This document shows, in pieces, positions 37,754-47,058 of a DNA stretch of 64,000 nt. The DNA lies in NCBI GenBank assembly GCA_023334545.1, contig JAADVB010000067.1, positions 1 to 64,000 of the forward strand, given 5' to 3'. This stretch comes from Salisapilia sapeloensis (lineage: Eukaryota; Oomycota; Peronosporomycetes; Peronosporales; Salisapiliaceae). Below the pieces are notes generated by a model, which searched no databases, had not been told where the DNA came from, and saw only the letters and a program-made list of their open reading frames with translations. The position numbers were made by a program, and so were the translations under genes. The stretch's first letter is position 1, and each line of letters begins with the position of its first letter.

Positions 37754-39055
37754 CAATCAGTTGTTTTTGTTGATATCATATCGGCAAGTTGCCATAAATG
37801 CATCTTAAACAGAGTGCTTGTCTGGAGTTGCAGAAATATGCTTAACTTTCGAATTGTTTGGTTTTTATATGGTTACTCAAATGGTACATTTGTACAAAGA
37901 AAATGACCTACCACTTCTGTGATATCGTTTACTTATCCACCACTATGCACTTCTACTGCAAAAAGCAAAGTTGTAAGAAAATTTGAATGGACTAATCTTG
38001 ACATCTACTTGTGGAGTTAAAGAAACTAGATTATAAAGTTAATTGACGCATTGACTGTTTAGCCGTGAACGCTTCGACTAAATGTGCGCTATTCTTCTAC
38101 ATCCGGTTTGTAAAGCTCAATTTCTTTCCTGACTGGATATAATGATGTGCAAGGTGACTGAAGTGACTGCTACGATGGAAGCACAGATGAGGCAGATGTG
38201 TGACCTACCTGGTTTGATGGCTGCAACCAGAAGCATGACTGATAGTGATGTGGTGCCCGAAAGTTTCGAGTGATGTCTCGTAAAGAACATCTAAGCAAGT
38301 TTCGAAGTGGGCACGAAAATAGCTCGTTTAGATACTTTCATTTCTTTCTGGGTAAAGAATCTTTGAAGATACTAGAGAATGACCTTACTAAGCGATGCTA
38401 GCAGGCGAGTGGCAACTGGTGCGGCAAGAAGTATGTGACCTGATCATCTACACTGTATTGCATTGTGTGTCGGACGCCAAAAGCTCAGTACTACCGAAAT
38501 TCAACGCCTTGCTACTGAATGAGTTGTAGCATACCAATGCAGAGCGCGACAAGTTACTGGTCATGGCCTACCACTTGTACAAGTAAGGAAGAGCGTATTG
38601 TTATCAGCTTACAATGTTGTATGCGGCAAGCCTGACAAATAATAATCTGCTTTTGTATGCACGTCCTTTGTCGAAACTGGAATGGAAATTAACTGTGCAG
38701 AGTGATGAAATCATGATGCGAGCGCATCCAATGTACCCCTAGTGCTGACATCGCTCAGCTCATGTAGACATTTAATGCTCTCAATCATCAGTTTTTTCCG
38801 TACTTATAAAGTATCCGTGAATGAAATGGAAAACCCATCGATGAATACTCAACCACAACTCATTCCTTGTCATAACGTCCTATACAATCCTATCAAATAC
38901 CGATCCAACACGTCAATCACTTCTACTTGCATCTATTATACTGATACTGATAGCCCTGTTCCGAATTAAGTAGACTCGATACATTCAATTTCCACCGAAT
39001 CGAACAATTGGTTTTTCCCGCCAAACACACTTGCGATCGTCGCATTCGCTCTGTC
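37754..39055. other. gene-free stretch
   Basis: About 1.3 kb of AT-rich sequence with only short frames. It presumably includes the promoter of the PDZ gene. Confidence 0.55.
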
Positions 39056-41194
39056 ATGGACGCTGCCAACAAGAAGACACGTAAAGATGTGCCTCCAACC
39101 GACACTACCACAAAAAGCAATCTTCCCTGTAGATCTAATCAACCCAGTCCGAATGCAACGACCCCAGCGTCTCGATCAAATACATCGGTACGTCCACCAC
39201 CAGTGTACTCCTCTATCCTTTCCACTGCAGTTCTGTCTCCACGACCTGCAGTTGTTCCAAGTACGCTACTAACCCCCACTGGTCAGAATGCTGTAGATCC
39301 ATTGGCATCCTCACCAGTGGTATCAGATCGCCAAGCATCACTCTCTCCGTCCGAATCGTCCGATCCAGACAGTCTAGACGTGGAGAACGATGCACCTCAC
39401 TCCTTTTTAGCTCCACACAACACGTCTATTTTAGCTCACGATCCTGCAAATGACGATCAGGTCTTTGAATGTAGAATTGACAAGGGCAGGGAACCCATGG
39501 GCATGACACTGAGTTTCCGCACTCGTCGTGTTTGTGTACAAGACGTAGTACAAGGTTCCTTGGCAGAAAAAGCTGGTATAAAAGTAGGCGACTTTGTGGT
39601 TGCCATTAACGGCAATTACCTTGATGGACTAAGCTTCCAACGTGTTTTAAAAGCCTTAAAGGCACATGCCATGGGGAAACTCGTTCTTAAGATACGACGC
39701 AACGACGATACGTCGTCTACTACCAGCACAAAGCGTCCTGCATGTGCATCGAATAAGACTGTTAAACGACAAAAGACAGAAGAAACGACTGCAAGTACAT
39801 CTACGACGTCACGAGTGACATCCGCGACACCTGCAGTGGTCGCACCACCGCCTAGTACCCAGAATCTTACGCCTCCCTCCCGTCTTACAGGATCCACTGA
39901 CACTACTGCACACTCGTCCAAGACAAGTGCAAGGAGTACGATCCAACGGAATGTCGGTATCCGTGCCTCTACGTCTACTAGTCACCCGTCTACTACTCGT
40001 TCTACTAGAACAGTGACCACAGCAACATCTGCTGTCGTTACCTCCCGCCTTCCCAACTCACATAAATCCAACCAGAGCCGAGAGACCATCGACCTCACAG
40101 ACTCCACCTCTGACGACCGTCCAACCACAAGTCTACCTACCACTGCAATCACTCTACCTCCCTCTCGACCCTCGACTACAGCCCATACAGCCACCACTCT
40201 ACCTACCAGTACAGTCGCTTTTCGTACCTCTCAACCCACTAGTTATATCTGCCCGCCTGCCTCTCGACCTACTACAGCTATTCCACCTGCCAGTAGTAGA
40301 GTCCGTCCAGCTGCATCAACTCTGTCTGGTACAGAGCATCCGCCTACTTCTCTGTCTAGTGATACAGTGCTTCCATCGACATCGATCGGCGGCTCTGTAT
40401 CTACTGCACCAGAGAGGGTGGAGACAAAGGCGTCTGCAACCATGGACACTGCAACGCACACTCTATGTGCGATACGTGAAAAGTTCGAAAAGCAGATCGA
40501 GCTATTAAAGCAAGACTTGGCTGCAGCTGAAGCTCGAGCAATTGCCCATCACGAGCACTTTGAGCGTACTTCGAAGAGTCTCCAGTCCGACTTTTTCACG
40601 ACCGTCGGCAACCTCTGCAACATGTATCGTACGCTATCGAACGACAGCGCGTCTGGGATGATACAAAGAGAACTCACGAACGCCAAGGTCCAGTCGTGTC
40701 GAGATCGAGCTAAAGTGCAGTGGATGGTGAATCGAGACTTTCGACATGGACCGATTGAGGCACGTAGAATCCAGAGAGAATTGGTCGCGGCGTTCAAACG
40801 TACGTTGCGGAACGTCGACTGGAACGCATGTGTCCAGGCGTCGAATGAACGTCACATGCCATTTGCAATCAACGTCGAAAGCGTTCGAGAAGCTGCTTTT
40901 CGTGTCCTCTTCCAACGTCCGATGGCAGCTGGAGACATCAACGTGGCTGGACAAGAGCAGTGGTATGGGAATATGAATGGACAGACGATGACAGAGGTAC
41001 GTTTGCTACTCGACTATCGCTTCGTATCTAGACATAACTTGCTTCTGTAGATACTTGAATGGTCTTTGAATGGGTATGTGACGGAAAAGGGAGTAGAACG
41101 TCAAATCCATCTTGTCACGGGAAATACGTTGCGTCTCTTGTATGATCGAGAGATGGAACGACTGAATCTACAAGGCACATTCGTCATTCATTAG
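39056..41194 (+). CDS. PDZ-domain protein with Ser/Thr-rich linker and coiled coil
   Basis: Two exons, 39056-40996 and 41051-41194, with a 54-bp GT-AG intron in phase 0, give 694 residues. The first ATG is at 39056; earlier in-frame codons are not ATG. Residues about 136-215 are a PDZ domain: REPMGMTLSF takes the place of the GLGF carboxylate loop, followed by VVQGSLAEKAGIKVGDFVVA and ING-x-x-L-x-GLSFQRVLKALK, the canonical PDZ core. Residues 220-465 are an extreme Ser/Thr/Pro-rich low-complexity linker. Residues about 470-520 form a coiled coil (REKFEKQIELLKQDLAAAEA). The last 170 residues are a globular region I do not recognise (WMVNRDFRHGPIEARRIQRE, EQWYGNMNGQ). PDZ domains bind C-terminal peptides; the partner is unknown. 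Only 30 bp separate its stop from that of the convergent ubiquilin gene. Confidence 0.8.
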
Positions 41195-41224: not shown

Positions 41225-42385
41225 CTACTGCTCTCGCATCGATCGAGCGATGGCTTCTGCTACTTCATCGTCATCAAACGTCCCGTCGTCCTCGTTCGTC
41301 GTAGAAGTCGTCGCTTGCGTAGAAGTGTTTGACGCTTGTGTCGACGTATTGGACACGACAGAGCCGCCGGTAGATGCGAATGGGTTCTCCGACTCGGAGG
41401 TGGAGGATGCAGATCCGGAGGATGCGAACGGATTGAAGCCACCGGCAGGAGGTGCGCCGCCCATCATCTGCTGCATCTGCGCCATGGCGTTCGGGTCCGT
41501 CATCATCTGCTGCATGCGCTGCTGCATGTTCGGGTCGCGTTGGATCATGTCCATGGACTGCCGGAGCATGTCTGGATTCGACAGCGCTTGAGATAGCATC
41601 GGGTTGTTGCGTACCATGGGGTTGTTCTGCAGTGACTGGAGCATCATGGGGTTGTCCAGCATTGTCTGCATCTGAGACGTCCAGTCGCTTGCCATGCCAG
41701 GCATGGACGGAGCGTTCGGAGTAGCAAAGGAAGGAGCAGAGGAAGAAGACGTAGACGACTGATGGAACTCATCTACGATGCGCTTGCAAGCGACGAGGTT
41801 CTCCCACTTGTCGGCACTGGGGATGAGGACGACGTGATCAGCTTCTACGCCTTCCTCAAAGCCGAGGACTTGGATGATATCACGGGCGCCGGCGGCACTT
41901 AGTAGACGGTTTTGAAGCGCTTGGTTGCCTAGACGTAATTTACGATACTTTTCCTCGTTCGGGTTCTTGATAATGTTATCACATATCTTGTACAACGTCT
42001 GGATGGCCGTAGAGTAGTTCGAAGCCGACTGCATTTGCTGTAAAAGCTGTCGAATACGTGTCAGATTGTCGTTGGAAGGAGTGGAGCTCGATTGTATCGG
42101 AGTAGAGGAGGTAGACGTCGACTGCGTCGGGATCTTGGCTTTGGAGATGGTCAAGTGCATCGTACATCCGTCTTCGAGACGATAGTCGGTCAAGGACTTG
42201 TCATCTTGGAGCACTTGGCCTTGGAAGATGAGGCGCTGTGCGACGGCAGGAAAGCGAGATGCGTCTTGCTGTTCAATCAGTTGCTTGAGCTCTGACACGG
42301 TCGTAGATTCCAAGCTCGGGACTTGGATATGGAGCGAGTCGCTTTCGCTACCGACAACTTTAACCGACAGTCCGATGGTGGTCAT
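41225..42385 (-). CDS. ubiquilin-like protein with UBL, PUB, STI1 and UIM-like segments
   Basis: An intronless frame of 386 residues. I start at 42385 (MTTIGLSVKVVG); an in-frame extension upstream is lysine/phenylalanine-rich and unlike the family. Residues 4-82 are a ubiquitin-like domain (RLIFQGQVLQDDKSLTDYRL). Residues 108-208 are a PUB domain (TLYKICDNIIKNPNEEKYRK, then LLSAAGARDIIQVLGFE), the module that binds the C-terminus of p97/Cdc48 in PNGase and UBXD1. Residues 236-308 are Met/Gln/Asn-rich STI1-type repeats (LDNPMMLQSLQNNPMVRNNP). The C-terminus (DDDEVAEAIARSMREQ) matches a ubiquitin-interacting motif, where ubiquilins normally have a UBA. The protein is expected to shuttle ubiquitylated clients between Cdc48 and the proteasome (inferred). 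It is divergent from the EF-hand gene with 267 bp between starts. Confidence 0.85.
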   Translation of the reverse strand: MTTIGLSVKVVGSESDSLHIQVPSLESTTVSELKQLIEQQDASRFPAVAQRLIFQGQVLQDDKSLTDYRLEDGCTMHLTISKAKIPTQSTSTSSTPIQSSSTPSNDNLTRIRQLLQQMQSASNYSTAIQTLYKICDNIIKNPNEEKYRKLRLGNQALQNRLLSAAGARDIIQVLGFEEGVEADHVVLIPSADKWENLVACKRIVDEFHQSSTSSSSAPSFATPNAPSMPGMASDWTSQMQTMLDNPMMLQSLQNNPMVRNNPMLSQALSNPDMLRQSMDMIQRDPNMQQRMQQMMTDPNAMAQMQQMMGGAPPAGGFNPFASSGSASSTSESENPFASTGGSVVSNTSTQASNTSTQATTSTTNEDDGTFDDDEVAEAIARSMREQ

Positions 42386-45174: not shown

Positions 45175-47058
45175 TTACATCATGCCGCCCATGCCACCCA
45201 TGCCACCCATGCCGCCCATGCCGCCCATGCCACCGGCAGCAGCACCGTCGTCACCCGGGAGGTCAGCGATAAGTGCTTCGGCAGTCATCATGAGCGAGGC
45301 AACGGAAGACGCGTCGACGACGCCCGTGCGCACAACCTTGGTCGGGTCGATGATACCAGCTTCGACCATGTCGACGTACTCGCCGGTCTGGGCGTTGAAG
45401 CCGTAGGTGGGCGAGTCGTTCTCGAGCATCTTGCCGACAACGACAGCGCCTTCTTCACCGGCGTTCTTCGCGATCTGCATAACCGTGGAGCGGCAAGCAC
45501 GCTCGACGATTTCGACACCAACCTTCTGGTCCAAGTTCTGGCAGTTGTCGTACAGGCTCTTGAGCGAGCGCGAGCACCAAAGGAGGGCAGCTCCACCGCC
45601 AGGAACAATGCCCTCGGCAACGGCAGCACGCGTGGCGTTCAAGGCATCCGTGACACGGTCCTTCTTCTCGTTCACCTCGACTTCGCTAGCACCACCAACC
45701 TTGATGACAGCAACACCGCCGCTGAGCTTGGCAAGACGTTCCTGGAGCTTTTCCTTCTCGTACTCGCTCGAAGTGGCTTCGATAGACGAACGGAGGAGGT
45801 TGCAACGCTCTTCCACGGCGTCCGCGACACCTGCGCCGTCCAGCATCAAAGTGTCATCCTTGGTGATCGACACGTTCTTGGCAGATCCGAGCATGTCAGC
45901 CGTCGTGCTCTCGAGACGGTGGCCGAGGTCCTCGGAGACGACCGTGGCACCAGTGAGCACAGCCATGTCCTGGAGAGAAGACTTGCGGTTCTCACCGAAG
46001 CCAGGGGCCTTGACGGCACAGACCTTGAGACCACCACGGATCTTGTTGATGACAAGGGCAGCAAGAGCTTCGCTGTCGACGTCCTCAGCAATGAGGAGCA
46101 ACGGACGCTGCTGCTTGGCGACCATCTCGAGCACCGGGACAAGGGACTGGAGGCTGGAGACCTTCTTCTCAACGAGGAGGATGTATGGGTTCTCCATTTC
46201 GCACGTCTGCGTCTTGTTGTCCGTGACAAAGTACGGCGAGATGTAACCACGGTCGAACTTCATACCTTCAACAACTTCGAGTTCGTTGAAGAGCGTGCGG
46301 CCGTCCTGGACGGTGATGACACCTTCCTTGCCCACACGCTCCATGGCGTCCGAAATGAGGTCACCGATCTCCGTTTCGCTGTTGGCAGAGATCGTGGCGA
46401 CCTGGGCAACCTTCTGCTTGTCGTCAACGCTCTGGGAGATGGACTGGAGCTCATCGGTGATCTTGTCCACGGCCATCTGGATGCCGCGACGGAGGTCCGT
46501 CGGGTTCATGCCAGCCGCAACACTCTTGCAACCTTCCGAATAGATCGAACGGGTGAGGACGGTGGCGGACGTGGTACCGTCACCAGCCGTTTCGTTCGTG
46601 TTGTTCGCGACCTGACGGAGCAACTGGGCGCCCATGTTCTCGAACTTGTCCTTGAACTCAATGTTCTTGGCGACCGTGACACCATCCTTGGTGATCTTGG
46701 GCGCACCGAAGGACTGGTCGATGACAACGTTGCGGCCCTTGGGACCAAGCGTGACTTGGACGGCGTTGGCGAGTTGGTCCGCACCCTTCAACATAGCAGC
46801 ACGTCCCTAGAATCATTGCAAAGAAAGATAAGTACATGTACGTTGCATGCAACTTGCATTGCCTCTTCCTCGATCAAGTGCAACTTCATATAAAAAAGAG
46901 TGCGGAATCGAAGTGAAAGAGCTACTAAGAAGAAAACAAGACGGTACCTCGACGCTGAACATGATCTCCTTGCCAGAGGCAAAGTTACGCGCACCAAAAG
47001 GCGCCTTGGTGGCGTGCTTGGCAGCACGCTTGGCGGCCGTCATGAGCTGAGGATTCAT
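45175..47058 (-). CDS. HSP60: mitochondrial chaperonin HSP60 (GroEL type)
   Basis: Two exons on the minus strand, 47058-46948 and 46806-45175, joined over a 141-bp phase-0 GT-AG intron, encode 580 residues. Exon 1 (37 residues) is the Arg/Lys/Ala-rich presequence ([20 protein letters not shown]), typical of mitochondrial import, plus the mature start (KEIMFSVE). Exon 2 opens [20 protein letters not shown]. Group I chaperonin landmarks include [14 protein letters not shown], the ATP site [24 protein letters not shown] in the apical domain, and the Chaperonin-60 signature [15 protein letters not shown]. The C-terminus is a run of GGM repeats, the hallmark tail projecting into the cavity. It folds matrix proteins with HSP10. 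Codon use is strongly biased, and this leaves a 580-codon plus-strand frame open, which is not a gene. Confidence 0.96.

Follow-up and report, generated by a model that had tools for sequence, protein, structure and literature searches.

In the general view, handing substrates over from Cdc48/p97 to the proteasome requires separate shuttles and adaptors, and in animals ubiquilin and p97 are linked through erasin. The shuttles of the ubiquilin/Dsk2 type have the order UBL-STI1-UBA, and among the Cdc48/p97 cofactors PNGase, UBXD1 and HOIP carry a PUB domain. According to Marin 2014 (PMC4230246), every stramenopile characterised so far has one ubiquilin. Here we describe a gene of the oomycete Salisapilia sapeloensis that encodes a 386-residue protein in which UBL, PUB, STI1-type and UIM-like segments follow one another. 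It lies in a stretch of 64,000 nucleotides, the whole of which we call the window (positions 1 to 64,000 of contig JAADVB010000067.1, assembly GCA_023334545.1). From sequence comparison and structure prediction we consider it fairly probable that the window protein is a Cdc48-docked ubiquitin receptor that passes its clients to the proteasome, and it appears to be the organism's single full-length member of a UBL-PUB-STI1-UIM family found mainly in stramenopiles.

Domain layout of the window protein

The gene occupies positions 41225..42385 and is encoded on the minus strand, with its ATG at 42385 and its stop codon at 41225-41227; an earlier note on this DNA had given the right coordinates and no strand. 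Because the start and end of most full-length homologs lie at the corresponding places in the window protein, nothing is likely to be missing from the gene model, and an intron is not required. The domain order is UBL, PUB, STI1-type block and UIM-like C-terminal helix, without a UBA, and the features are as follows.

41225..42385, minus strand: coding sequence of the UBL-PUB-STI1-UIM protein, 386 residues plus stop, single unbroken frame
42140..42376, minus strand: UBL domain, residues 4-82 (PF00240, E 1.1e-15; Foldseek matches to ubiquitin and Dsk2/ubiquilin UBLs)
41771..42073, minus strand: PUB domain, residues 105-205 (Pfam match at 123-199, that is 41789-42019; PF09409, phmmer and Foldseek)
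41462..41683, minus strand: STI1-type helical block, residues 235-308 (PF23195 below cut-off; shuffle test; helices of the model)
41231..41278, minus strand: UIM-like C-terminal helix, residues 370-385 (motif conservation; predicted helix; Pfam silent)

This order had been proposed in the earlier note and is borne out by Pfam for UBL and PUB, by shuffles for the STI1-type block and by a motif for the tail; the limits given there (UBL 4-82, PUB 108-208, STI1 236-308, tail 370-385) agree with ours, the PUB domain being modelled at 105-205.

The ubiquitin fold was recognised by PF00240 at residues 20-82, above the Pfam cut-off, and in a Foldseek comparison of the whole model the UBL matched ubiquitin and the UBLs of Dsk2/ubiquilin. 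The central block is PUB, as the note had supposed, since PF09409 matched residues 123-199 with an E value of 7.2e-22, again above the cut-off, and phmmer matched it to the PUB domain of human PNGase (2ccq) with an E value of 2.3e-12. Because ubiquitin folds fill the fold comparison of the whole model, the PUB domain was folded separately. Predicted on its own by AlphaFold, it reached a predicted local distance difference test score (pLDDT) of 95, and the top of its 102 Foldseek matches was 2hpl, the PUB domain of mouse PNGase with p97 (template modelling score 0.78, E 3.6e-6), followed by other PNGase entries and the PUB domains of UBXD1, HOIP and SPATA2.

The STI1-type profile PF23195 (UBQLN1) matched residues 238-293 with an E value of 0.0039 and 17.3 bits, which is below the Pfam cut-off of 27. 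Residues 226-316 scored 23.3 bits against a profile made from 17 ubiquilin-type proteins, and 500 shuffles of the same residues gave a mean of -9.7 (standard deviation 3.7) and a maximum of 7.6 bits, which rules out a match through chance or composition. For family-wide counts we used two alignments that include the window protein, one of 41 rows (A1) and one of 59 rows (A3), the latter excluding P0023, P0028, P0060, P0079 and P0087-P0099. At E<=0.1, all 41 rows of A1 had PUB, 39 a ubiquitin fold and 36 a UBQLN1 match; at E<=1, the counts in A3 were 59 for PUB, 56 for the ubiquitin fold, 43 for UBQLN1 and 33 for STI1-HOP_DP (PF17830). By precomputed domain lists, PF23195 occurs in few diatom-type members, and the STI1 label is firmer among oomycetes.

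The window protein ends in DDDEVAEAIARSMREQ, which fits phi-x-x-A-x-x-x-S with an acidic lead in front. This pattern is the UIM core L-x-x-A-x-x-x-S, as given in PMC4962041, widened to other aliphatic residues and with acidic residues in front, and it was written after the tails had been seen. It was present in the last 35 residues of 69 of the 75 family proteins (window protein included) and in none of 88 matches without PUB, and shuffling the window protein's own last 35 residues 20,000 times produced it 20 times. A378, I379 and S382 are invariant across all 59 rows of A3. Given this conservation, a UIM pattern by chance seems unlikely, bearing in mind that the pattern was written post hoc. 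The set of 75 excludes three PPPDE-PUB proteins (P0045, P0048 and P0055) and a PNGase (P0047), none of which has the motif; P0097, a UBL-STI1 protein with neither PUB nor motif, was counted in neither set, and the 88 controls are mostly ubiquilins, with a few non-ubiquilins such as the thioredoxin-type P0164. Six family proteins have no terminal UIM: P0087, P0089 and P0092 (285-313 residues) are apparently cut short, the model of P0023 extends into a PDZ domain, P0090 has the motif internally, at 443, ahead of an HSP20 domain, and P0098 has no motif. We call the tail 'UIM-like' because curated UIM profiles miss the window protein and reach some rows weakly (at E<=1, PF02809 in 9 and PF23625 in 12 of the 59 rows of A3).

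Our first protein search gave 65 matches and a subsequent profile search 136, of which 120 are listed. Pfam listed no UBA in the window protein at E<=10, and none in its last 40 or 60 residues, in agreement with the earlier note; nor did PF00627 or PF22562 (UBA) fall on any PUB-bearing match among those listed in the first search and among the 120 of 136 in the profile search. A UBA that is present yet overlooked is thereby ruled out. In AlphaFold modelling (59 sequences), the UBL and PUB folds were confident, the chain of short helices at 235-308 was less so, and in the window protein a low-confidence linker led to a helix at 370-385. The model of the whole protein had a predicted template modelling score (pTM) of 0.42, which puts domain-domain contacts outside its reach.

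A candidate route from Cdc48 to the proteasome

In the reading that we favour, the PUB domain would dock at the C-terminus of Cdc48 (...EDLYS), the STI1-type block would hold hydrophobic or unfolded client segments as they emerge from Cdc48, the UIM-like tail would bind the client's ubiquitin, and the UBL would dock on proteasome receptors. A single polypeptide would thus bridge Cdc48, client and proteasome, working alongside the canonical ubiquilin and not as its replacement. A link of this kind had been put forward in the earlier note and is the best mechanism on offer; we infer each of its binding steps, as well as the direction of transfer.

Evidence for the Cdc48 end of this route comes from the genome itself. 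Searching its 19.5 Mb in 452 contigs, we found a single CDC48_2 match at E<=0.01, a Cdc48 ending ...AAVDDDEEDLYS, whose C-terminus (...DDDEEDLYS) is LY-type. EDLYS is the kind of tail that is bound by PUB domains, and the Cdc48 link is strengthened by it. Section 4.2 of PMC6995525 ascribes tail binding by PUB to YxxN(x)9Y and K/RxxN, plus an arginine near acidic residues. Aligned to PNGase, the window PUB has IxxN(x)9Y, RxxN and the arginine R160, with N41, Y51, R55, N58 and R64 of PNGase corresponding to N137, Y147, R151, N154 and R160, so that five of the six pocket positions are kept. The same positions are conserved over the 59 rows: N at 137 in 58, Y at 147 in 57 (F in 2), R/K at 151 in 58, N at 154 in 58 (one gap) and R/K at 160 in 58 (one gap). 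Docking of this PUB domain on Cdc48 is likely.

Several observations speak against our proposal. The first tyrosine of the pocket (Y38 in PNGase, Y181 in UBXD1) is I134 in the window protein, and position 134 is never tyrosine in the 59 rows (I in 36, L in 13, V in 7, M in 2, F in 1), which weakens the Cdc48 link. The SPATA2 PUB also lacks this tyrosine, and its binding to such tails was not found. Further along the chain, the STI1 profiles cover part of the family (PF23195 43 and PF17830 33 of the 59 rows at E<=1), and curated UIM profiles had no match in the window protein, either by Pfam at E<=10 or when the last 40 or last 60 residues were searched alone. A profile of the family tail run against PDB sequences returned 10 rows at chance level and no UIM chain, and PMC4962041 reports that the C-terminal UIM of human Ddi2, taken by itself, has no more than millimolar affinity for ubiquitin. 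As for the contribution of the tyrosine in another PUB, HOIP Y82A abolishes and Y82F lowers OTULIN binding, as reported in PMC4017264.

An alternative is that the PUB domain binds a partner other than Cdc48, in the form of another peptide or, as with SPATA2-PUB and CYLD, of a folded domain, and that the protein is a UBL/UIM receptor tethered to some other complex. The absence of the tyrosine from every row of the family would fit this, as would its retention in two of the five other PUB proteins of the same genome that we aligned, the remaining three having isoleucine. However, the other pocket positions are kept, including the carboxylate-binding R/K-x-x-N, and the genome's Cdc48 has retained its LY tail. 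Moreover, the PUB domain of a wasp PNGase (P0047) also has isoleucine at this position, so the substitution is not peculiar to the UBL-PUB-STI1-UIM family. We regard a non-Cdc48 partner as unlikely, and Cdc48 docking remains our preferred reading.

The other end of the protein could also be read differently, with the C-terminal helix binding the protein's own UBL, that of another protein, or a modifier such as Nedd8, in autoinhibition or regulation. A UBL and a UIM within one chain could pair, and UBXN7 reportedly uses its UIM to dock on neddylated cullins (the title of a reference in PMC5085755); however, a model with a pTM of this size gives no test of domain-domain contacts. This seems to us improbable, and we retain ubiquitin of the client as the favoured ligand of the tail.

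Relatives, the separate ubiquilin and neighbouring genes

Having surveyed the taxonomic spread of the architecture, we found relatives in oomycetes, diatoms and other stramenopiles, so that it is not unique to this genome. UBL+PUB matches of the first search came from Phytophthora, Pythium, Globisporangium, Peronospora, Bremia, Hyaloperonospora and Aphanomyces, from the diatom Thalassiosira profunda, and from sources without an organism name. Among the matches listed, the profile search added Thalassiosira sp. AJA248-18, T. minuscula, a MAST-4-labelled protein and the xanthophyte Tribonema minus, together with many metagenome and transcriptome proteins without an organism name. No listed UBL+PUB match bore the name of an animal, a fungus or a land plant, in searches of about 8,000 candidates each in which many matches are unnamed. 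A search with the PUB region only (59 candidates) gave no match and missed known homologs too. Some of these proteins have been deposited under names such as 'PUB domain-containing protein' (P. infestans) and 'Ubiquilin-1' (P. citrophthora), so the sequences are already public, as are the domain calls made automatically.

The same PUB and tail also occur behind other N-terminal domains. P0088 (MAST-4) is a PPPDE-UBL-PUB protein, P0094 PPPDE-thioredoxin-UBL-PUB and P0096 thioredoxin-UBL-PUB, each with its UBL above cut-off, and P0093, from the green alga Tetraselmis chui, is thioredoxin-PUB with no UBL match; all four have a C-terminal tail of the window protein's kind. P0095 joins PPPDE and/or thioredoxin to PUB and the same tail, with a weak UBL. 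Because the variants carry PPPDE, thioredoxin and UBL in differing sets, PUB and tail are joined to different heads, and the set would extend beyond stramenopiles if P0093 counts. The PPPDE-PUB proteins P0045, P0048 (source label Polarella) and P0055 have no UIM motif, and the C-terminus of P0045 and P0048 is Met-rich and STI1-like.

With a Phytophthora ortholog as query, the window gene was the sole full-length match among 12 in the genome. A separate ubiquilin lies on contig C71, where one frame encodes a UBA and two stretches matching UBQLN1, of which one passed the cut-off when the genome was searched; upstream, in a different frame, a UBL-like exon recognised by eye is matched by the UBL of a family member. 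That the window protein is the organism's only ubiquilin is ruled out by this UBL-STI1-UBA gene, which agrees with the count of one ubiquilin in Marin 2014 (PMC4230246). Because the same genome has a separate ubiquilin, the window protein adds to the set of shuttles and is not the organism's own ubiquilin in another form.

It could still be a divergent paralog, if an ancestral ubiquilin was duplicated and one copy gained a PUB domain and swapped its UBA for a UIM, a history compatible with Cdc48 docking. The N-terminal UBL and the STI1-type block resemble ubiquilin, and a precedent exists in vertebrate Ddi2, a UBL protein that, according to PMC4962041, lost its UBA and has a C-terminal UIM. 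On the other hand, PUB and the same tail stand behind thioredoxin or PPPDE, in some cases with a UBL between, and a UBL tree (43 rows, 84 columns) had four changes of family label and neither united nor separated the family and the ubiquilins with support. We hold such a descent to be possible, if on the unlikely side. The descriptions 'PUB inserted' and 'UIM in place of UBA', which the earlier note had used, fit the layout, and as evolutionary statements they are tentative, given the separate ubiquilin, the tree and the other heads.

PUB matches in the genome number seven, with the window gene as one of them. On contig C223 (L003:253-1758) a thioredoxin-UBA-PUB protein has a UBA, not a UIM, and keeps the first pocket tyrosine. 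An unusual combination is found on contig C14 (L006:1093-1815), where one open reading frame matches first a Jacalin-like lectin domain (E 7.4e-6) and then PUB (E 5.9e-11). At a locus on contig C271 (L007:557-1833), an open reading frame has a TUG-type UBL and the open stretch after it a PUB match, so that the locus may encode a TUG/ASPL-like protein that includes PUB.

Next to the window gene, a convergent open reading frame at 39008-41050 on the plus strand encodes a PDZ-domain protein. In the Phytophthora kernoviae model P0023, UBL-PUB-STI1 runs into a PDZ domain that is 45% identical over 51 residues to that of this neighbour, which hints at an old linkage of both genes and a fused gene model. 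A gene for an ordinary Cpn60/HSP60 chaperonin, the tail of which is rich in GGM, lies at 45175-46794 on the minus strand.

Comparison with known systems

We suggest tentatively that stramenopiles have a second, old class of proteasome shuttle beside the canonical ubiquilin, wired directly to Cdc48. It would consist of a PUB-STI1-UIM body with a UBL head, with PPPDE (a putative peptidase) or thioredoxin added in some lineages, and would combine extraction, chaperoning, ubiquitin reading and delivery in one chain, with an altered chemistry of the PUB pocket. The shuttle repertoire of diatoms and oomycetes would be widened accordingly. A conserved protein with both docking ends and a client-holding middle would offer a simple handle for testing direct hand-over, and a natural PUB pocket variant without the first tyrosine lets one ask what recognition of the Cdc48 tail needs.

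A UBL-like domain and PUB may likewise be joined in plant WLM-type proteases, on which a literature search found nothing. Targeted searches of open-licence papers found no description of the UBL-PUB-STI1-UIM architecture. Its modules are known, and it is their combination for which we found no published description.

Compared with ubiquilin/Dsk2, the window protein shares the N-terminal UBL, the STI1-type block, low-complexity linkers and a similar size, and differs in its PUB domain between UBL and STI1, its single STI1-type block, its UIM-like tail instead of a UBA and its coexistence with a separate ubiquilin gene. With PNGase, UBXD1 and HOIP it has in common the PUB fold and, of the six positions in the tail pocket, five; unlike them, it has no transglutaminase, UBX or RBR domain by Pfam, and an aliphatic residue takes the place of the first pocket tyrosine. 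Vertebrate Ddi2 (UBL-RVP), as described in PMC4962041, likewise has a C-terminal phi-x-x-A-x-x-x-S UIM where its relatives have a UBA, and is thus the precedent for a UIM in this place, but it has a protease domain and no PUB. The PPPDE/thioredoxin-PUB proteins (P0088, P0093-P0096) share PUB and the same C-terminal tail and have extra N-terminal domains, P0093 being without a UBL match. In the window protein, finally, a link of the ubiquilin-p97 type would lie within one chain, unlike the erasin route of animals.
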